A stretch of 64,000 bases of DNA from Buxus sempervirens (Eukaryota; Streptophyta; Magnoliopsida; Buxales; Buxaceae), in the NCBI GenBank assembly GCA_947561395.2, contig OX387184.1, positions 10,458,205-10,522,204 on the forward strand, read 5' to 3'. Below the pieces are notes generated by a model. The model ran no database searches and had not been told where the DNA came from. It saw only the letters and a list, made by a program, of their open reading frames with translations. Within the stretch, counting starts at the first letter, position 1, and each line of letters opens with the position of its first letter. Shown here one piece after another: positions 10,351-59,339 of the stretch. The position numbers and the translations under genes were made by a program.

Positions 10351-11489
10351 GCTGTGCGCGTGGTCGCACGGGTCGGCACGCCTCCCAAAGGGTAATTTCG
10401 GGAATGTTGGAGTCGCCACCGCCTGATGGGGTGCAGGCGGACACCTGGGTGCCTAAGTTCTTCTACTAAGGCTTGGTCTGCGGCTTGAGATTCTAAGTAG
10501 GTTCTCGGTTGAGGTCTGGGGAAGTCCGTAGACACCCCAGTCCACCCCGTCAAATGACGGGTCCCATAAGTTTCCCTGGTTTGAGTCAACTCTGGTCTCT
10601 CACTCACCCGATTCCTATTCCAGCATGTAATTTTGATTAAGTCTAGCGGGACCGCCAAAGTGGTGTGGGTCCCTTTACTTGGTTTTATCTTTCTTAGCTT
10701 AAAGTGGTGTGAGTCTGATTGGGCGGGCCCCGTTGGAAGGCCCGTGGGTTCCTTGGTGGGCTTGGTTGAGCCCACGTGTCCCTTGGTGGGCCTCGGTCTA
10801 AACCTGAGAGACCCTTTGGGCTTTGGTTCAAGTGAATTGATTTTACTTTGAAGTTCAGTTTGGTTATTTAAGTGATTTCTATGCACAAGTGGGCCGGGAC
10901 TGTTTGTGCGCCCTTGAGTGGGCCCCACAGTTGTTTGCCAAGTGATTTGAGATTTATCTTGCTTAAGTTTCCAAAGTGGGCCAGGATGTGGGCTTGGGGC
11001 CCTTTACCTGGGCTTGGGCTTGAAAGCCCAAGACTTCCTGAGTTAGGGTTTTGAAACCCTAACCTTAGTTGGTTAATGGGCTTGGTGGGCCCGATAGGCC
11101 CTGCCCTTGGTCCCGGCCAAACCACGACCTAATTTAAGCATGCAGGCCCCGCATAGGGCTTGGGTGGGCCCCAAGTGGTCCGGCCCGCCCAGCTCCTTTG
11201 ATTATCTTATTTAAGCACGATTCAATGGTTCGGGCTGGGTGGGCCCCGTTGGAGGGCCCACTGGAAATCAAGTCAGACCGGGTGGTCTGGGTCCCAGGTT
11301 GGGTTCCCGGGTGACCCGGAAACCCTATTGGCATATTTGGTTCGGTTTGAGAATGTCACCCCACAGTCAAAAATCATGAAATACACAAAATACACTGGGT
11401 CCAAGGGGTATTTTCGGAATTCAAAAAATATAGGCCATTCGGCCTTAAAAGGGTAGGCGCCGACCTCCGGGTGCTAGGCGCGAGGTCAG

Positions 11490-12010
11490 CGCGAGGTGGG
11501 CGGACCGAAAACAGCGAAAAAACACCCAAAAACGAGGTGGGCGCACCCAAAATGAGGTGGGCGCGAGGTGAGCGCGAGGTGAGCACGAGGTGAGCGCGAG
11601 GTGAGCGCATCCAAATTTAGGTGAGCGCGAGGTGAGCACGAGGTGAGCACGAGGTGAGCGCGAGATGAGCGCATCCAAATTTAGGTGGGCGCGAGGTGAG
11701 CGCGAGGTGAGCACGAGGTGAGCACGAGGTGAGCACGAGGTGAGCGCGAGGTGAGCGCGAGATGAGCGCACCCAAATTTAGGTGGGCACGAGGTGAGCGC
11801 GAGGTGAGCACGAGGTGAGCGCGAGGTGAGCGCGAGATGAGCGCATCCAAATTTAGGTGGGCACGAGGTGAGCACGAGATGAGCGCGAGGTGAGCGCGAG
11901 GTGAGCGGACCCAAGCTAGGTGGGCACGAGGTGAGCACGAGATGAGCGCGAGGTGAGCGCGAGGTGAGCGGACCCAAGCTAGGTGAGCGCGAGCTCAGCG
12001 CGAGGTGAGC
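11490..12010. repeat. GC-rich minisatellite inside the LTR
   Basis: About 0.5 kb is built from a 10-11-bp unit, GAGGTGAGCGC or GAGGTGAGCAC, broken at intervals by an ATCCAAATTTAGGTGGGC-like spacer. It creates long open frames of repeated RSPRAHL on the minus strand, which are artefacts of the repeat. The related solo LTR carries a shorter version at about 56560-56870. Confidence 0.85.
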
Positions 12011-12984
12011 GTGAGCTCAGCGCAGACCCTGACTCTCTGTTTTTTCTCTCCAAACTCCATTTCCGACTGGTTTTAAGCTCTGTAACTGGTTTCTGGGGAT
12101 CCTTAGAACCCCAGCAGACCTTTAACATACTTGGAAATTAATCTAACCTAAGTTGTGAGGATCAAACCTCTTTGCAAACCTACAAATCCGAACACCCAAA
12201 CATTACAGAACATGCATAAAACTTTGAAAACAAAACACTAACTAACAAAACACGATTAAGGAAGAAGGGAAAGGGGGGTTTTATCGGGATACAAGAGAGG
12301 TGCGATCACAAGGAACATGCTCCCTTCGAATTCGAATCAAACAAACAATGACAAACAAGATATCAGAGATTCATGGGAAGCCTGATTTATATATATATCT
12401 TGAACAAAAGAAAATGGAGAGCTCACCTTGGTTCCAGGTCTTTGTAGGGTAGGCCGGAGGGTTCCTTGGAGCCAACGAGCTGCAGCCGGAGCCTCCTTCT
12501 CACACCAAGAGCAAGATTACCTTCGAGTGCCGAGGGACAACAGAACGTCCAACCCCCAAGAAAATGCCGAACTCCAACAACCCGAACCAACAAAAAAATG
12601 CAGAACCCCAAAAAAATGCAGAACCCCCGCAAATGAAGGCTGCTGGAGCTTTTATAGAAGGAAAAATGGGCATCCGCCCACTTTGGCGCCCAGCTCGCGC
12701 CGAGCTCCTGTCGCTCGGCGCGAGCGACAAAATCATTAAAACATTAAATGCCGCCGCGGGTTTGTTTAAAAAATCCGAAAATTAAGATATAGTCCCTGGG
12801 ATATTTTGGTTTAATATTATTTTATTCAGATATTTTCAAATATTTTCAGATTGGTCCCTGGGATATTTTGAATGTTTAGATATTTACGGATTTGATCCCC
12901 GAGATATTTTCCTGCGCAACTCGCCACGTGTGCAGCTTTTTGCCACGTGCGCAGTTTGCTGGTTTTGCTGCTCGGGAATTTCGT

Positions 12985-13560
12985 CAGCTCATATCTTCTT
13001 CATCCGGGCTCCGATTTGGGCAAACTCAGTTGCGTTAGAATCGTATCGGAGCCCTCTATCCAATGGCATGGGGGTAAGCACCTGGATCGGATTTCACCAG
13101 AAAGTCAACTTTTGGCTCCGCCTAAGTTTGACTGCCCGCAGAACCTTCATCTGGACTCCGATTCCTGCAAACTCAGTTGCGCTGGAATCGTGTCGAGATC
13201 CTCTATCCAATGATATAAAGCAAGGCCTCTGGATCGGATTTTAGCAGAAAGTCAACTTTTGGCTTCGCCCAAGTTTGACCGCCCGCAAAACCTTCATCCG
13301 GACTCCGATTCCTGCAAACTCAGTTGCTCTGGAATCGTGTCGAGATCCTCTATCCAATGATATAAAGCAAGGCCTCTGGATCGGATTTTAGCAGAAAGTC
13401 AACTTTTGGCTTTGCCCAAGTTTGACCGCCCGCAAAACCGTCATCCGGACTCCGATTCCTGCAAACTTAGTTGCGTCGGAATCGTGTCGAGATTCTCTAT
13501 CCAATGATATAAAGCAAGGTGGCCAAATATCACTTAATAAAAAAGTCAACTTTTTGTCCC
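12985..13560 (-). repeat. 147-bp tandem repeat in the LTR
   Basis: Four imperfect copies of a unit containing CATCCGGACTCCGATTCCTG, CTATCCAATGATATAAAGCA and AAAGTCAACTTTTGGC; successive CTTCATC blocks fall at about 13145, 13291 and 13438. The same unit is repeated at 54830-55520 in the solo LTR and at 1800-2260 in the LTR fragment, so it is a family trait. Confidence 0.75.
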
Positions 13561-13700
13561 TCCGGGGTTTGACTTTCTGCCAGGGTTTTGAGCTGTTTTG
13601 CTGTCTTTTAGCACATTTTTTTTGTTTTCTTATTTTCTTTTCTTTTCCTCCTTTTTTTTTTTTTTTTTGGTTTGATCAAAATTTGGGTGCTTACAATAAC

Positions 13701-14581: not shown

Positions 14582-16986
14582 TGTGCGCACTTAAAACCTG
14601 GATCCTAGATCGCACACCGGGCGTACCTTCAGTGCGTGCCTCTGGACTTTTCGGAGTCGCCACTGCCTGAGAGTGCAGGCAGACACGGTTTTGCCCTATC
14701 CGGGTCTAAGTCTGGTCTGCAGCTTATTAGAGATCTAGCTAAGTCCTCGGTTACGTCCGGGGAAGTCCTAAAGACACCCCGGTCCGCCCCGTCGGTCTGA
14801 CGGGTCCCTCGGGTCTCCCTGGTTTTTGAGTCAATCTCACCCTTCCTAGATCAGCATGCTATTTATTGGGTCTGGCGGGGCCCTCTGAAGGTGTGGGTCC
14901 CTTTTATTTTAATTTTATCTTTTTATTTAGTGAAGTGGGTTGGATCCGGATCCCGTTGGAAGACCCGTGGGCTGCCAAGATTGGGCCTGGGGCCCAGTTG
15001 GGTTATTGAGTAACCCATTTGGTTATTTATTAAATTAAACCATTTACACATGCAATGGGCTTAGTGGGCTTGGATTTGGCCCATTAGCCAAGGGTCAAAG
15101 GGCCTGGGCCTGTTTATTGAAAACAGGCCTGGTTTGGGCCGGTCTAAGGTGGACCACTCATGTGGGCCAAAAGAGGGTCTTGGTGGGCCCACGGTCCAAA
15201 GATGGGCTTAAGATAGCCCAAATTGTTTAAGGGACTGCTTAAGATAGCCCAAATTGTTTAAGGGACTGGTTCAGGTCGGTTCGGGTCGGAATAGATCCAA
15301 CCGGGCCGAAAAATTACATTTTTTATGTTACTTTTTACATTAGCTCGTATTTTCTATACGGTCCCCACTTGCCTGTGAACTAAATCCGGTTAGGCTTGCC
15401 CATGAAGCAAACACGGTCCCAACTGGATCGTTCTGAGTTTACTAGCGCAGCCAGTTTTGCATTTTTGCAGCCGATTCTTTTCAGGATTTGTTCCGTGGCC
15501 TTCTTAAGTGCTCCAGAGACCTCTGTTGAGCTTCCAGCATTTCCGGTATGCCACCTTTGTTTCATTTGGCTTATAAAGCCACTTTTCTTTTCTTCTTGTT
15601 CTTCCTGGAAAGGAAGGTCTTCTTCTAATCATCCATGGTCATTTTTAGAAGGAGGAGTGAGGGAAGATTACAGGGGATGATCTATAGATTACAGATTCTT
15701 TTTGTATTTCCAAAACAAAGCCAAAATGGATGTATGGCATCTTCATGTTGCCTCATGTACTCACTTCTCTCTTTTTTTTTTATTTTGAAACTCTCATTGG
15801 CATGGAGGTATCCCAACAACCATAAATCAACTGATTAGTAGATAATGTAGTAAAAGAAAAATACCAAATGCTTCAAATAAGGAAATTGATGAATATATTA
15901 ATAGGAAACATTACCAAACTAGCAATTCTTTGCTTTTGTTGATGCTAGGATCCTTCGAGGATTTCGGCAGCGCTTCCGCACTTCAAGGAATTTCATGGGT
16001 TGATTTTGAAAGGGTTTTTGCTGGGTTCCTTTATTAACTAGGTGAGAAGAAGGGGTTTAGGCATGGTTTAGGCAAGGTGAGGGGTATTTTGGGGATTAAA
16101 TGGGGTTAGGTGTTGGGGTGATGGTGATTGGGCAGAGCTAGGCCGCAGTTAACTGCAAAGAGGGAGAGGGGTTCGGCCTGAGGGGAAGGCTTGTTGAAAT
16201 GGGGGGGAGGCCTCTCTATTTATAGGCAAAAAGGGGGCGTGCCCGTATTTGAAGTATTGGCGTGCCTTGCCCGTACTTCAAGTACGGGCGTGCCTTACCC
16301 GTAATTCAAATACGGGCGAAAAACGCACATTTGCAAATCTCGCGAATCCGCCGTACGGGACGCGTGTCCCGCCGTACAGCGACGCGTGTCTTCTTCCAGA
16401 ATCTTGCCCGTATTTCAAATACGGGCATGCCCTGCCCGTAATGCAAATACGGTCCAGCACGTTTTTTAAATGTTTGGATTTCAAACCTTTATTCAATTTG
16501 GTTTTTGCAAGATTTTTATTCGATTTTTCCGATTATTTTATTAAAAAGCGAGATTCTCTTTATTAAAATATTATTAAACACTTTTATTTTATTTATTGTA
16601 TTGGTTTATTCCATTTTTTACTGCCTTTTTGCCACATTGGCAGTTTTTCTGAAACTTCAACTGCTCATAACTTCTTCATCCGGTGTCCGATTTCAGCAAA
16701 CTTAGTGTCGTTGGAACCGGCTCGGAACCACCTATCCATTAGGATCAAGTTTGGCAGCTGAATTGGACTTTTTGCTCCCCCAAAAGTTTGACCAGCTCAT
16801 ATCTTTCTCATCTGGACTCCGATTCCAGCAAATTCAGTTGCGTTGGAACCGTGTCGAAATGCTCTTTTCAATGAGATGAAGTTTGATGGCCAAATTTACT
16901 TGAATCAAAAGTCAATTTTTTGACCCCCTCAGGGTTTGACTTTTCATTTTTCTTTATTTTGGGGGTGCAAAAATCAGGTGTCTACA
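14582..16986 (-). mobile_element. Solo LTR, Tat/Ogre-like, with TSD CATGG
   Basis: A 2405-bp solo LTR on the minus strand, starting TGTAGACACC at 16986 and ending GTGCGCACA at 14582. It is flanked by a perfect 5-bp duplication CATGG (14577-14581 and 16987-16991). Its inner end resembles the LTR at 10353-10620 (GGAGTCGCCAC and the following 200 bp), so it is a relative of the gag-only element. It has no internal region and is the product of LTR-LTR recombination. Short open frames inside it (near 15380-15840 and 16249-16705) are not genes. Confidence 0.9.
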
Positions 16987-29347: not shown

Positions 29348-32300
29348 TTATTTCAAAACGCTAATATAGTGTGGTTTGAGAGTATCAGAAGATACCTGAT
29401 CCTGTGCCTTCGAATTAAATGATGATACACCATTCTCCCCAGGCACATGATTAACATGTTCATCTGATCCTCCAGCTTTAGAATTTCCCTGTTCTAGTGC
29501 CACTAAAGAGGGATCCTGTGAAGAAACTACATTAGCTTGATAGGCAGAGTTGTTGTTCTCTTTATTTTCAATCATAACTTCAGGGACTAATTGACTTTTA
29601 TCTATAAAGCCACTGGTCTCTTCAGCATCATCAGGAGAGCAGTCTACTGGTATCAATTCATGATCAACTTTTGGGGCAAGCGGTTGTATGATTTCTGTTG
29701 AAACCACACTAACAGGAAAAAAATGCACCCGGAAAGGAGAAAAAACGAAAATAAGAAAGCATAAGATTCAATAAATAAGTAAAAACCAAATTCACAAACA
29801 GGATTTGTGGTATAGACTGAGTTGTACCAGTTAACCGCCTCTTCATAGGGCATTTCAGATAGGTCTTTGTGTTGCTTTCTCTTCTTATTATTCTGCCTCT
29901 TCTTCAACTGTCCATCAACATCATCATAAGGGGAAGAGCTCTTTGATCGTTTTCTTCCAAACTGAAGCCCCTGTTCAGCAACATCCTTCATAGTTTCCAG
30001 CCCTAAATTATGTGACTCCTTTACATCCACTCCAACTACAGGCACCTCAAGTATCTCTTTTGGCTCTTCAAGAGCAGATCTCAATGGTATTGTCCTGATG
30101 AATTTTCTGTTAGTTTTATTGTTCCCCACAGACAGCTGTTGCATGAATACACCAGACGTATCTTCAACACCTTCCAAGTGTCCTGAAACAACTTTCTTAT
30201 CATTCTCACAGCTCGCCGGTGATTTCAGATTTGCATCTTCAGTCTTATATCTCAGTGATTTTCCACCATATTTAATAGGAAGCTTTTCAGGAGAAGGTTT
30301 AAATATCAACTCAGTACACCGTTTGATCCATGAGAAAGGGGTGGAGCTAGGAGCCGTAGTACAATCTGATGTTTGCTTCGAAAGCAACCCCACTCCATTG
30401 CCACTGCCACTGCCAACAACCTTTTTTGCTGGTTTCAAATTAAGCTCAACATCCTGAATCTTCTCTGAATGATCTATATCCACAATTATTTCTCCCCTGG
30501 GCTTCAAATCTGCTTGAAGAATCTGTGAGAAAAGGATATTTTCTGAGGCAATTTTGAAATCTTCCAAATTTTTCAAATTTTGGATCTGAACTAGAATTTC
30601 TTCTCTATCTGCATGCAATAATTCCCGCTGTTTCTTCAGCTTTTCACTTTGGATTTGAAGTTCCTGAATGGAGTTCCTTATCTCATCCCATTCCTTTTCT
30701 CTTCGTTCCCGATCCAGGTTGATCTCAATTCTCTCCTTATCAAGCCTTTTCATTTCCAGAGCAATGTGTTCAAGTTCTTTTGTAACTGTTTCCTTTAGGG
30801 AATTGATATACTGAAGTTCTTTGTTTTTCTCTCGCTCAAATGCTTCCTCCCGTTCCCTTAAATAGCTTTCTATTTCTTCTCGCCTTCTATCAACACAATT
30901 TTCCAATTCCCTAGCTTGCATATCCATGTCCAGTAAAAGATCCGTGCGCTCTTTCTGAATCTTGCTAAACCACTCTGAATGTTCATGCTCCATTTTGCTT
31001 ATAAAGGCTTCTCGCTCGCGAGAAAGTGATTCAACATCTTGTTTAAACTGATCCCTCAGGGCATCCTTTTCTAATTTTAGACTAACACGTTCTTCTTTGA
31101 GAACCTTAGTGATAGCTTTTCTCTCCTCAGCAATACGTTCTTCTTCTTTCCGCAGTTCTTCTCTTTTCTCTTCAATTAACTCCCATTCAGCTTCAAACTT
31201 TGCTTTTTCTGATTTCAAATCATCAGCTTCAGCCATATTCTCCAGCTTTTGGGCCCTGATGCTATCGATTTCCTCTTTAAGTTTCTTTTCAATAACCGAT
31301 AACTCATATTTTTCACTTCTCAAGTCCTCTAGCTTTTCTTGAGCTTGTTCAACTTGTTTCCTCTTGTCTTCTAGAGAATCCATAGATTTTTTAAGCTCTA
31401 ACTTCATGTTATTGATATCTTCTCTTTCTTTCTGCAAGTTCAGCTTTTCCAACTCTGCCTTCTTTTCAGTGGTGTTGAGACTTTGCTCTTTCTTGTCAAG
31501 AGAATTCAATCTTTCTGTTACATCCCTCTCCTTATCCATTAATGCTGCTGACTGTACCTCAAGTTCATGTTCCCTTACCAAGATTGATTCTGCTCTTTCA
31601 TTAATGTCCACCTCTCTCAACTCAAGAGCTTTCCTCTTGGCCTCCATCTCATCTTCTAACATCTTAAGTTTAACATTCAGCTCTGCCTCAAATTCAGACT
31701 TCCTTGTCTTTAGAGCAGTTTCATGTTCAGCTGTAAGTCTTTGAATCTCATCCTGCATGGTTCATCATGAAACATAGCATCAAGGTCTGGTTTTTGGAGA
31801 TAATAGATGTAACAACTGAAATCTACTTGCAAATACTGGCAATAAATAATTAATATTAGATGTGAAGTAGTAACATGCAAGAGCTTTTCTTCTAGTGGAA
31901 TCAATGGTTTGGATTACAAAGAGAGCACACCATTTTGAGTTTGTATCATGAAGCCATTTCAGGAATGGTTGGCCTCACCTTTTATGCCAGCAGAAGTAAG
32001 CCAGGCTTGATCTTAATGCTTGTTTAGATAAATGGGATAGGCATGGCTATAGGTTGAAGAAATCAACCTGCCAAGGCCTATCATCTTACATACTTGTGTA
32101 AGTGAGCCCGCAGAAGTAAGCCAGGCTTGATCTTAATGCTTGCTTAGATAAATGGGATAGGCATGGCTATAGGATGAAAAAAACAACCTGCCAAGGCCTA
32201 TCATCTTACATACTTGTGTAATGCTTAAATATTACCACAAGATTTAACTGCTAAAAGGATTAAAATATGGATTAAAATGATTGCTTTATGTTCATGGTTG

Positions 32301-54135: not shown

Positions 54136-54475
54136 AAATTTAGTTAACCCCCGTATAAGTCATTAAACCTTGTCAAATTAATTTTTAATGATACTTTTTT
54201 AAAATAATCAACATAATTAAATTTTAGTGACACTTTACCATATAACGTGTACTAAGTCATTTGATTGGTACATGGGCATTCTTCAAAGAACGGGGTTTGT
54301 AATAGGACTGCAACTCGTTGCGGTTTGGTTCGGGTTAGCTTCAACCCAGGTCCAAACCAAGGTTACTGATGGTCGGTTCAGAACCGAACTGAACCGACCT
54401 CAGAACCGAATTACCGAAACTGAAACCGAACCGATTATTTATATAAATCCCGAAACCCAACCCAAACCGAACTGA

Positions 54476-57400
54476 ATTGCAAATACTGCGATTCATTCCT
54501 TTCAACAAGTACATGATCTCGGGCGTCAAATTGTTCTCGATGCTGTAACCAAATATTGCCGGCAATCAAGCACAAACCCTAGCTGATTCCTCATACGAAA
54601 ACTCTAAACTCTCTAAGAATCTTACCTTGGCAACGAGCTTCTCAGTTCGGGTGTTGAGTAGATGGGCATTGAGTGTCGTCGGTGAATTGAGATTACGTAA
54701 CCCTAATTCCATAAGATAGAGAAGCATCGGTCTCAGACAGTACTCGGTGTAAGCACCTCATTTTTGCGCTCCCAGAAAAAAACCAAAAATACAAACCCTG
54801 GACAGAAAGTCAACCCTAAGGGGTGAAAAGTTGACTTTTTTGATCAAATGAAATTGGCCACCTTGCTTTATCTCATTGGATAGAGAATCTCGACACGATT
54901 CCAACGCAACTGAGTTTGCAGGAATCGGGGTCCGGATGAAGGTTCTGCGGGCGGTCAAACTTAAGGAAAAGCCGAGAGTTGACTTTTCCTCGAATTCCGT
55001 GCCAAGTACCTTGCTTTATATCATTGGATAGAGAATCTCGACACGATTCCAACGCAACTGAGTTTGCAGGAATCGGGGTCCGGATGAAGGTTCTGCGGGC
55101 GGTCAAACTTGAGCAGAGCCAAAAGTTGACTTTCTGCTAAAATCCGATCCAGAGGCCTACCCCTAGGTCATTGGGTATAGAATCTCGACACGGTTCCAAC
55201 GCAATTGAGTTTGTAGGAATCGGGGTCCGGATGAAGGTTCTGCGGGCGGTCAAACTTGAGCAGAGCCAAAAGTTGACTTTCTGCTAAAATCCGATCCAGA
55301 GGCCTACCTTTAGGTCATTGGATAGAGAATCTCGACACGGTTCCAACGCAACTGAGTTTGCAGGAATCGGGGTCCGGATGAAGGTTCTGCGAGCGGTCAA
55401 ACTTGAGCAGAGCTAAAAGTTGACTTTCTGCTAAAATCCGATCCAGAGGCCTACCCCTAGGTCATGGGATGGAGGGCTCCGATACGATTCTAATGAAACT
55501 AAGTTTGCCCAGATCGGAGTCCGGATGAAGGAAATATGAGCTGACGAAATTCCCGGGCAGCAAAACCAGCAAACTGCGCACGTGGCAAAAAGCTGCACAC
55601 GTGGCGAGTTGCGCAGGAAAATATCTCGGGGATCAAATCCGTAAATATCTAAACATTCAAAATATCCCAGGGACCAATCTGAAAGTATCTGAAAATATCT
55701 GAATAAAATAATATTAAACCTAAATATCCCAGGTACCATATCCTAATTTTCAGATTTTTAAGACAAACCCGCGGCGGCATTTAATGATTTAATCATTATG
55801 TCGCTCGTGCCGAGCGACAGGAGCTCGGCGCGAGCTGGGCGCCGAAGTGGGCGGATGCCCATTTCTCCTTCTATAAAAGCCACAACCCCCTTCATTGCAG
55901 GGGGTTCGGATTGTTGGAGTTCTGCATTTTTTTGGGTTCTGCATTTTTTGGGTTCGGCATTTCTTGGGGGTTGGACATTCTGTTGTCCTTCGGCACGCGA
56001 AGGTAGTCTGGGCTACCATCTTCCCCAAAGAAACCACACTCTTGGCCATTCCTTTCTTCCCCTTCTTCCTCGTCAAACCCGAAGGTAAGCTTGCTCTTGG
56101 TGTGAGAAGGAGGCTTCGGCTGCAGCTCGTTGGCTCCAAGGAACCCTCCGGCCTACTCTACAAAGACCTGGAACCAAGGTGAGCTCTCCATTTTCTTTTG
56201 TTCAATATATATATAAATCAGGCTTCCCATGCATCTCTGATATCTTGTTTGTCATTGTTTGTTTGATTCGAATTCGAAGGGAGCATGTTCCCTGTGATCG
56301 CACCTCTCTTGTATCCCGATAAAACCCCCCTTTCCCTTCTTCCTTAATCGTGTTTTGTTTTCAAAGTTTTATGCATGTTCTGTAATGTTTGGGTGTTCGG
56401 ATTTGTAGGTTTGCGAAGAGGTTTGATCCTCACAACTTAGGTTAGATTAATTTCCAAGTATGTTAGAGGTCTGCTGGGGTTCTAAGGATCCCCAGAAACC
56501 AGTTACAGAGCTTAAAACCAGTCGGAAATGGAGTTTGGAGAGAAAAAACAGAGAGTCAGGGTCTGCGCTGAGCTCACGCTCACCTCGCGCTCACCTAGCT
56601 TGGGTCCGCTCACCTCGCGCTCACCTCGTGCTCACCTCGCGTTCACCTCGTGCTCACCTCGCGCTCACCTCGCGCCCACCTAAATTTGGATGCGCTCATC
56701 TCGCGCTCACCTCGTGCTCACCTAAAATTGGATGCGCTCACCTCGCGCTCACCTCGCGCCCACCTAAATTTGGATGCACTCACCTCGCGCCCACCTCATT
56801 TTGGGTGCGCCCACCTCGTTTTTGGGTGTTTTTTCGCTGTTTTCGGTCCGCCCACTTCGCGCTGACCTCGCGCCTAGCGCCCGGAGGTCGGCGCCTACCC
56901 TTTTAAGGCCGAATGGCCTATATTTTTTAAAATTCCGAAAATACCCCTTGGACCCAGTGTATGTGATTTTCGTATATTTTGTGTATTTCATGATTTTTGA
57001 CTGTGGGGGTGACATTCTCAAACCGAACCAAATATGCCAATAGGGTTTCCGGGTCACCCGGGAACCCAACATGGGACCCAGACCACCCGGTCTGACTTGA
57101 TTTCCAGTGGGCCCTCCAACGGGGCCCACCCAGCCCGAACCATTGAATCGTGCTTAAATAAGATAATCAAAGGAACTGGGCGGGCCGGACCACTTGAGGC
57201 CCACCCAAGCTCTATGCAGGGCATGCATGCTTAAATTAGGTCGTGGTTTGGCCGAGACCAAGGGCAGGGCCTATCGGGCCCACCAAGCCCATTAACCAAC
57301 TAAGGTTAGGGTTTCAAAACCCTAACTCAGGAAGTCTTGGGCTTTCAAGCCCAAGCCCAAATCCTGACCCACTTTGGAAACTTAAGCAAGATAAATCTCA

Positions 57401-58495
57401 AATCATTTGGCAAACAACTGTGGGGCCCACTCAAGGGCCCACAAACATTCCCGGCCCACTTGTGCATAGAAATCACTTAAATAACCAAACTGAACTTCAA
57501 AGTAAAATCAATTCACTTGAACCAAAGCCCAAAGGGTCTCTCAGGTTTAGACCGAGGCCCACCAAGGGACACGTGGGCTCAACCAAGCCCACCAAGGAAT
57601 CCGCGGGCCTTCCAACGGGGCCCGCCCAATCAGACTCACATCACTTTAAGCTAAGAAAGATAAAACCAAGTAAAGGGACCCACACCACTTTGGCAGTCCC
57701 GCTAGACTTAATCAAAATTACATGCTGGAATAGGAATCGGGTGAGTGAGAGACCAGAGTTAACTCAAACCAGGGAAACTTATGGGACCCGTCATTTGACG
57801 GAGTGGACTGGGGTGTCTACGGACTTCCCCAGACCGCAACCGAGAACCTACTTAGAATCTCAAGCCGCAGACCAAGCCTTAGTAGAAGAACTTAGGCACC
57901 CAGGTGTCCGCCTGCACCCCATCAGGCGGTGGCGACTCCAACATTCCCGAATTACCCTTTGGGAGGCGTGCCGACCCGTGCGACCATGCACACACTCGGC
58001 ATCAGCAAGGAGAATTGCGGGGCAACGAAGAATTAGACTACACGACTCGTGAGATGTTGCGAGGTCAACGTCAAGGAAGTCGAATACGGGAGCGATGTCG
58101 GTGGCGCCGAGATCGGACGGGAAGAATTTGGGGCAGATAAAGGAGAGCCGATGGAAGTCAAAATCGGAGAAGCCCTTGGATTTGAGGTAATTTACGATTG
58201 AGAGAATTCGATCTAGGGTTTCTGGGGAGGAGAATTTGTTACTATAGTTTTTGTTGTTGTTGTTGCTGCTGGTATTGATGATGCCTAGGGTTTTGAGGTA
58301 ACAGAGAATCTGGCGGTGAGATGTGCGGAATCCGAGTAGAAGAGGAGGCTACGTAGAAGGCCGAGATTGGAGTTCTGGGGAGTCGATGGAACGGGGTGGA
58401 GGGACGTGGAAGGAGCTGAGTAGCATTATCTTAAAGCGGTTGACAAATTGCTTCCCGAAGCTCGCGATTCCCCGGCTCTGCGAATTGAAGGCCAT
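54476..58495 (-). pseudogene. Captured mTERF-family gene segment, split by a solo LTR
   Basis: On the minus strand a frame starts at the Met at 58495 (MAFNSQSRGIASFGKQF) and runs to 58000, encoding GFRTSHRQILCYLKTLG, ILSIVNYLKSKGFSDFDF, LSFICPKFFPSDL and LILRCPAILLADAE. After the LTR and one copy of its TSD the same frame goes on with YCLRPMLLYLMELGLRNL, FLESLEFSYEESARV and LPAIFGYSIENNLTP, then stops at the hAT subterminal DNA. These are repeated mTERF motifs of about 35 aa, each with a Pro near its start. Plant mTERFs are organellar nucleic-acid-binding proteins. The captured copy has at least two in-frame stops and lacks the C-terminus, so it is a dead fragment. The parent gene is probably elsewhere in the genome. 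Confidence 0.8.
54748..57994 (+). mobile_element. Solo LTR, Tat/Ogre-like, with TSD CTCGG
   Basis: A 3247-bp solo LTR starting TGTAAGCACC and ending CATGCACACA, flanked by perfect CTCGG duplications (54743-54747 and 57995-57999). It is collinear with the 5' LTR at 10353-13695 in the opposite orientation: the 147-bp repeats (54830-55520), a TATAAAAG box near 55873, the GAGGTGAGC minisatellite (56560-56870) and the GC-rich end all correspond. It is the same family with moderate divergence and a shorter minisatellite. It carries no internal region. Confidence 0.92.
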
Positions 58496-58810
58496 GCAAT
58501 AAGACTAATCACAGTAAAAAGAAGGAGAAGAGTGGGAATCGCAAAGACTCGAAGAAATTAGAATCATTGTTGAACAAAAAAGAAGAAGAAGAAGAATGAG
58601 AAGAGGAGATACTAAGATAAGATTTTAACCTCTTTGTCTGTTAGAACGAAAAATCCGAAGAATCAGCTCCAGAGAATGGCGTCTTGAACACTGGCAATCC
58701 CGGTGGTGAAGAGAAGGGAGGCAGGTCGAGTTTAGGGTTTGGGAGAGGATTTAGTCATTTAAGAGGAACGGTTCGTTTGTAATATGTTAAAAAGTTGGAT
58801 CCTGAATTTT

Positions 58811-58843
<33 letters not shown>
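58811..58843. repeat. (AT)n microsatellite
   Basis: About 15 AT dinucleotides lie between the captured mTERF leader and the right subterminal region of hAT element A. Confidence 0.9.
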
Positions 58844-58847
<4 letters not shown>

Positions 58848-59339
58848 TGTATTTTCGGTTCAATTCGGTTCGGTTTAGAGAAATGCATTATTTCGGTTTA
58901 ACAGATCACACAACCTAGAACCGAATTGATTTAATTCGGTTTGGAGACTTTGAATCTAAAACCGAACCAGACATATAAAAAACCGAACCGAAATCGGTTT
59001 GGGTCAGTTCGGATTCGGTTTTACCCGGACCAAGTTGCAGCCCTAGTTTGTAATAGTAAAATGTAGAGCTGACAAAAATCGAATCGACCCGACGGGTCAA
59101 CCCGATTATAAACGGGTTGGGTTGACCCGTTTATTAATTGGGTCGGGTGCGGGTTGGGGTTTTCCTAGAGGTGGCAACGGGTCGGGTTGGGTCGGGTTCA
59201 GGCGGGTCATAATTGGGTTGAGGTATAATCGGGTTGGGTCGGGTTGAACCCGATTAGTGGCGGGTTGGGAAAACCCCAAACCGAACCCAACCCGCCACTA
59301 ATCGGGTTCAACCCGCCCAACCCGATTATTTTATTTTAT

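Follow-up and report, generated by a model that had tools for sequence, protein, structure and literature searches.

Gene capture by hAT transposons has already been published, and its mechanism is disputed (PMC2528002, PMC3260210, PMC8903248, PMC8277862). A Pack-TYPE survey of maize and rice includes Pack-hATs, with acquisition cases in hAT as in the PIF and Mariner clusters (PMC8903248), and two Ds2 and nine Ds-l4 elements of maize hold gene fragments (PMC3260210). Among animal Pack-TIRs, 208 of 370 are hAT elements, with a median breakpoint microhomology of 2 bp and gap-filling or template-switching models of capture (PMC8277862). Here we describe an element in a 64,000-nucleotide stretch of the Buxus sempervirens genome (hereafter the window, C4:10458205-10522204) that carries a segment of an mTERF gene. 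It is almost certainly a Pack-hAT: a non-autonomous hAT element in which host gene pieces, copied from genomic DNA, took the place of the interior one step at a time. No report of an mTERF fragment in a hAT element was found in the literature searched (one library).

Like the Pack-hATs of PMC8903248, which come from different plants, the window element has hAT ends and an 8-bp duplication with a host gene fragment between them. It and its relatives in the same genome (the Buxus family) resemble Ds2 and Ds-l4 in belonging to the hAT superfamily, in keeping introns, in having a donor on another chromosome and in the long terminal repeat (LTR) sequences found inside some elements, whereas the same cargo at up to five sites and a nested stack of pieces set the Buxus family apart (PMC3260210). 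Hatvine-6 of grapevine is likewise a hAT with shared terminal inverted repeats, and its variable interior matches intron and exon sequence of genes; its elements share transposase coding sequence, whereas nearly all of the Buxus family stretches compared lack a match to the transposase pieces described below (PMC2528002). Animal Pack-TIRs share with the Buxus family both capture and an occasional multi-copy spread with distinct duplications, but multi-copy cases are rare among them (4 cases, 1.4%), while four cargo types are multi-copy here (PMC8277862).

Ends and cargo of the window element

The whole analysis concerns one genome (676.5 Mb in 247 contigs), in which DNA searches score the best candidates only and family size is therefore a lower bound. 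The interval 54303-59045 is a non-autonomous hAT element (Table 1). Its ends, TAGGACTGCAACT and AGTTGCAGCCCTA, form a 13-bp inverted pair matching at 12 of 13 positions, with one mismatch, and an exact 8-bp duplication, GTTTGTAA, lies outside both; an 8-bp target site duplication together with short terminal inverted repeats is what membership of hAT entails. The preliminary description had given this interval, both ends and the duplication, all of which were reproduced exactly, and its account of word-rich subterminal DNA was borne out: the words ACCGAA and TTCGGT occur five and zero times in the left 190 bp, four and six times in the right 260 bp and not at all in the middle, and are thus restricted to the subterminal parts. 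The left 13-mer occurs 50 times in the genome, compared with six occurrences of a reversed-letter control. The left subterminal framework is similar to that of 13 of the 14 other elements compared (79-87% over 157-190 bp), the similarity to the fourteenth, L004, falling into two pieces. The right framework holds a TA microsatellite at about 58813-58852, and its outer 190 bp has at least 41 matches in the genome (40 scored of 882 first-look candidates). Without a nested LTR, the element measures 1491 bp, about 1.5 kb, a length that its framework, leader blocks and mTERF sequence explain. Rfam gave no matches in the window at gathering scores.

Table 1. Features of the hAT element and its flanks, in window coordinates
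Feature	Position	Strand	Evidence
Target site duplication GTTTGTAA, left copy	54295-54302	.	Identical to 59046-59053
Left terminal inverted repeat TAGGACTGCAACT	54303-54315	+	Genome-wide 13-mer match count
Left subterminal framework	54303-54484	+	Also in relatives with different cargo or none known
Captured mTERF segment, 3' part	54485-54747	-	DNA alignment to parent locus L029; TGA at 54568
Target duplication CTCGG of LTR insertion, left	54743-54747	.	Second copy at 57995-57999
Nested putative solo LTR, 3247 bp, TG...CA	54748-57994	.	Flanking CTCGG; missing from C9 copy; similar to 10353-13588
Target duplication CTCGG of LTR insertion, right	57995-57999	.	Pair of 54743-54747
Captured mTERF segment, 5' part	58000-58439	-	Parent Met = 58426; TAG at 58351
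Captured piece of second locus, Met at 58495 (MAFNSQSRGIASFGKQFVN)	58438-58554	-	93% over 118 bp to L052 911-1028
Leader block present in many family members	58572-58702	.	Leader-query genome matches
Right subterminal framework of the element's subfamily	58710-59045	+	Seen in L001, L017, others
Right terminal inverted repeat AGTTGCAGCCCTA	59033-59045	-	Inverted-pair comparison with left end
Target site duplication GTTTGTAA, right copy	59046-59053	.	Identical to 54295-54302

Between the frameworks, the minus strand matches the mTERF domain (PF02536, E = 6.8e-12) and an mTERF-domain structure (3m66_A, E = 8.1e-6). A whole-genome protein search with the fragment returned eight matches: the two halves in the window, two halves of a second copy on C9, one stop-free gene on C4 and three distant mTERF-like sequences (31-33%). 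The C4 gene, at C4:4962102 and about 5.5 Mb from the window, is the parent; its stop-free frame of 281 amino acids (PF02536, E = 3.8e-36) shows 86% amino acid identity to the fragment, and the whole mTERF segment aligns to its DNA at 92.6% over 706 bp. This similarity is limited to element positions 183-885 and breaks off sharply at both cargo junctions, with only 13 matching bases upstream of the parent's Met. The captured stretch is intronless in the parent and comprises 82% of its coding sequence (690 of 846 bases, counted from the 5' end), more than the 5' two thirds of the gene that had been proposed.

Today the mTERF piece is without an intact frame. Reading from the Met at 58495, the window copy has the TAG, which is private to it, at residue 49 and the TGA at residue 226; the TGA is also present in the C9 copy, where the parent has CGA, and the C9 copy likewise carries both a TAG and a TGA. 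Of the minus-strand mTERF frame in the preliminary description, the mTERF similarity is therefore real, whereas the frame itself is split by the 3247-bp LTR and by the two stop codons.

The second copy, at C9:19737744-19739118 (1375 bp), has both ends and its own exact duplication, GTAACATG, and is 91.5% identical to the window element over 1260 bp. The two elements agree in both cargo junctions, in the fusion to a second locus (below) and in the TGA, and because these junctions and the TGA are identical, the two copies point to a single capture of mTERF followed by transposition with the cargo. Over 700 aligned columns of window, C9 and parent sequence, 636 do not vary, 16 distinguish both copies from the parent, 30 differ in the window alone and 18 in C9 alone. 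Changes are spread over the three codon positions in both copies (13/8/9 window-only, 7/5/6 C9-only) and give no sign of coding constraint. Sixteen of the 30 window-only changes are C-to-T or G-to-A, seven of them at CpG, which agrees with methylation and is not proof of it. The preliminary description had called the element a Pack-hAT and had suggested looking for a parent gene in the same genome and for further copies with the same ends; both are present, the parent being stop-free and without such ends nearby and the C9 copy having the same ends and mTERF cargo.

On its alignments, the cargo is a chimera, in which the mTERF segment is preceded by a leader and first Met that derive partly from a second locus and partly from family DNA. 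The piece at 58438-58554 matches C9:25652422, which reads MAFKSQSRGIASFGKRFVN at the matching bases. MAFNSQSRGIASFGKQFVN in the window leads into the mTERF segment in the same frame, and Met, leader and mTERF can be read together as residues 1-48 before the first stop is reached; the 5' cargo junction shows a 2-base overlap (CC). Two relatives (L039 and L042) contain further second-locus sequence past the point at which the window element becomes mTERF, two others (L040 and L041) match from 58495 outward only, and the leader block and right framework are common to many members with other cargo. A leader query gave at least 64 genome matches (40 scored of 93 candidates), of which 15 were cut out as loci; the source of the leader block at 58572-58702 was not found. 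The preliminary description had taken the first Met as the mTERF start and the leader as apparently the gene's own; we rejected this, as the parent's Met corresponds to 58426 rather than 58495, similarity to the parent is lost upstream of CCGCTTTAAG, and the inner part of the leader matches another locus and its outer part family DNA. Apart from a TA-repeat match and one 13-base match at E = 0.05, no element ends were found near the mTERF parent (1.5 kb either side in a 3.7-kb locus) or near the second locus (about 0.9 kb either side in 2 kb). As a separate observation, one relative (L049) has the leader block twice (element positions 1018-1126/1140).

Relatives of the window element and their cargo

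The left 13-mer was followed up at 24 of the 49 places outside the window (L001-L028, four fetched twice). At ten of these, both ends are present and the duplication has no or one mismatch (six exact); two more have duplications with two mismatches and two with three or four, and ten have no acceptable partner end in the fetched DNA. Among the 14 leader-bearing loci besides the window (L038-L051), seven possess both ends together with a duplication that is exact (six of them) or has a single mismatch, L042 being counted after L053 was fetched. Taken over the 22 element pairs with located ends, window included, 13 duplications are exact and 18 have at most one mismatch, compared with none and three, respectively, in 462 control pairings of left and right flanks across different elements; this set omits places with a missing end as well as L014, L039, L043, L044, L047, L050 and L051, whose best end pairs have three to seven mismatches. 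All four element pairs found later have exact duplications.

One relative, L012 (4671 bp), has the same ends, an exact duplication and matches to zf-BED (E = 3.3e-7), hAT-like_RNase-H (E = 1e-8) and Dimer_Tnp_hAT (E = 1.1e-27), which places the family in the hAT superfamily. Its transposase domains lie in separate frames, and the pieces were searched apart. By tblastn, 24 of the 25 family stretches compared, L012 excluded, gave no match to any of its four transposase pieces, the window element with its LTR removed being among the 24. The remaining one, L044, matched weakly: it has a BED-zinc-finger-like piece (45% over 49 amino acids to L012) beside the right framework and leader block, and no left end was located for it.

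Other members carry other host gene pieces: an O-methyltransferase dimerisation domain in L017 (E = 5.3e-15, Pfam), glutaredoxin (E = 1.1e-9) and GRXCR1-2_C (E = 4.5e-16) in L045, tRNA_bind in L040 (E = 3e-19) and DnaJ in L042 (E = 2.1e-13), while a PPR match in L051 is below the cut-off. A 92-bp GT...AG intron interrupts the DnaJ domain, which shows that this piece was captured from genomic DNA. Some cargoes recur. The tRNA_bind elements L040 and L041 are 95.7% identical over 899 bp of interior and have different exact duplications; a second glutaredoxin copy, L043, matches at 92.9% over 692 bp and lacks the left 44 bp, and a stop-free glutaredoxin frame with 94% identity lies at C3:60364570. 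Matches to the O-methyltransferase cargo cluster at C4:23.69-24.51 Mb (best 90%). As a forward test, all four scattered matches of at least 91% over at least 70 residues, L017 excluded, were fetched, and all four lie in elements with exact duplications (GTTGGGAC, CCACCTAT, CTGCCAGG and GCACCAGG), giving five O-methyltransferase-bearing elements, each with its own; five short or weaker fragments were left out of this set (C9:44760589, C19:27100950, C19:27101691, C10:19873150 and C11:16722283). Four cargo types therefore occur at two or more sites: mTERF, tRNA_bind and glutaredoxin at two each and O-methyltransferase at five.

Several further observations concern these cargoes. L017 (C4:20707239-20708766) and L054-L057 have, beside the O-methyltransferase exon, an apparent second gene piece with LRR/F-box-like frames by eye; the fragment tested gave no Pfam match. 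Pfam returned nothing for one frame of L001, two of L017, one of L039, two of L040 and two of L046, and the sole structure match of the L001 frame, 16 residues of a designed protein at E = 3.6e-4, was taken as chance. At G000:C8:47639673, a diverged glutaredoxin fragment (76%, one TGA) and a match to the right framework (C8:47638962) are about 560 bp apart and possibly belong to a further Pack element.

The nested LTR and the surrounding sequence

Two thirds of the interval in the preliminary description consists of sequence that we read as a solo LTR and as a later arrival in the hAT element. It starts with TGTAA, ends with ACACA and has the 5-bp CTCGG on each side, and the C9 copy is continuous across the site. 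It resembles positions 10353-13588 of the window (93.3% over 1422 bp and 90.1% over 1009 bp), an LTR-like stretch on the minus strand that lies 3.4 kb from a retrotransposon gag open reading frame (ORF) on the same strand (PF03732, 5136-6974); partial matches also occur near 1643-2294 and 16808-16943. Inside the LTR are five copies of a 106-bp unit at a spacing of 147-148 bp (54860-55554) and a GCTCACCTCGC-type array with 11-bp steps (56564-56887).

Just to the left of the element are three CAP-domain ORFs (PF00188; 47696-48208, 50648-51157 and 52924-53409), two on the plus strand and one on the minus strand, which we take to be a PR-1-like cluster. To the right, about 59059-59330 is occupied by an abundant, GGGTTGGGTCGGG-rich repeat that contains a 38-bp inverted repeat and starts about 5-10 bp beyond the duplication. 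Farther away, the minus strand at 29653-31758 has a coiled-coil-like ORF of 701 amino acids with no Pfam match, presumably resembling the nuclear-matrix CRWN proteins.

Mechanism and competing explanations

The element has identifiable donors at C4:4962102 and C9:25652422 and moves with its cargo as a unit, and its blocks nest inside one another across relatives. This nesting suggests an order of capture from framework to leader block to second locus to mTERF. A break or excision gap inside the element may have been repaired by template switching, leaving host DNA between the arms. Because the ends are shared, transposase of the L012 kind would have mobilised the element in trans; silencing by methylation may have followed. 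The window copy itself shows decay of the frame and insertion of the solo LTR.

Several points weigh against this account. An empty target site for the window copy was not found: a genome search with the joined flanks (1384 first-look candidates) gave its own two flanks and 38 other matches, all to the right flank, itself an abundant repeat, and most beginning at about 59059-59064. For seven of the 14 leader-bearing loci outside the window, a pair of ends flanked by a matching duplication could not be established. Eight of the 16 positions shared by both mTERF copies are third codon positions, a lean that fits changes in the parent, and with no outgroup some of the 16 may be parental changes, which makes them less than clean evidence of shared ancestry. 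The capture mechanism draws on sharp junctions and on a single CC overlap that could have arisen by chance, and nothing here demonstrates that L012 transposase acts on the window element.

The competing explanation that survives best is that two neighbouring insertions flanking a gene were fused, their outer ends then moving as a unit. The authors of PMC8903248 favour this model for Pack-TYPE elements and describe hAT examples as similar, and the doubled leader block of L049 is what two fused elements would be expected to leave. The lack of element ends near either donor in the fetched DNA nevertheless disfavours fusion, with the reservation that old insertions may be lost; by BLAST, the window and C9 elements each have one left and one right arm, and stacking cargo from two unlinked places at one junction would call for repeated fusions and losses. 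We regard fusion as unlikely, and the sharp junctions, unflanked donors and stacked donors fit template switching better.

Considerably less probable is a present or recent role of the chimera as an expressed gene or as the origin of antisense or small RNA that acts on the mTERF parent. The single frame over the first 48 residues would suit such a role, but both copies have stop codons, a 3.2-kb LTR interrupts the one in the window, and changes are evenly spread over codon positions; on the stops and this even spread we rejected a functional gene. More improbable still is that the mTERF piece is a retro-copy of an mRNA that was later joined to, or taken up by, the element. As the parent stretch is intronless, the piece alone cannot distinguish a DNA from an RNA origin; by eye, however, there is no poly-A tract at its 3' junction and no direct repeat around it, it ends within coding sequence, and a sibling with the same framework retains an intron in its DnaJ cargo. 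The missing poly-A tract and this intron led us to reject a retro-copy. Finally, while plants have many mTERF genes (about 30 members according to PMC4005652) and the ends are common in this genome, an ordinary mTERF gene lying by chance between two unrelated short hAT elements has a negligible probability given the single exact duplication outside both ends and a truncated, stopped fragment with an intact parent elsewhere, and is ruled out by the C9 copy, in which the same package lies within another exact duplication.

Stepwise capture from genomic DNA thus remains the explanation we prefer. As a more speculative extension, and one we consider quite doubtful, a single hAT sublineage might act as a serial exon shuffler: its right arm would keep stacked captured 5' leaders and a start codon, coding segments would join the inner edge in frame behind the borrowed N-terminus, and transposition would spread the resulting chimeras. 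Retention of the leader may then reflect a promoter or start that causes chimeras to be transcribed.

What distinguishes this case is its resolution, with a donor, a second locus, two independent insertions, nested pieces, a transposase-bearing relative and four multi-site cargo types in one genome. For annotation, the mTERF, O-methyltransferase and glutaredoxin frames in these elements are fragments and should be treated with caution. For the biology of hAT elements, template switching and neighbour fusion become testable against each other within one family.

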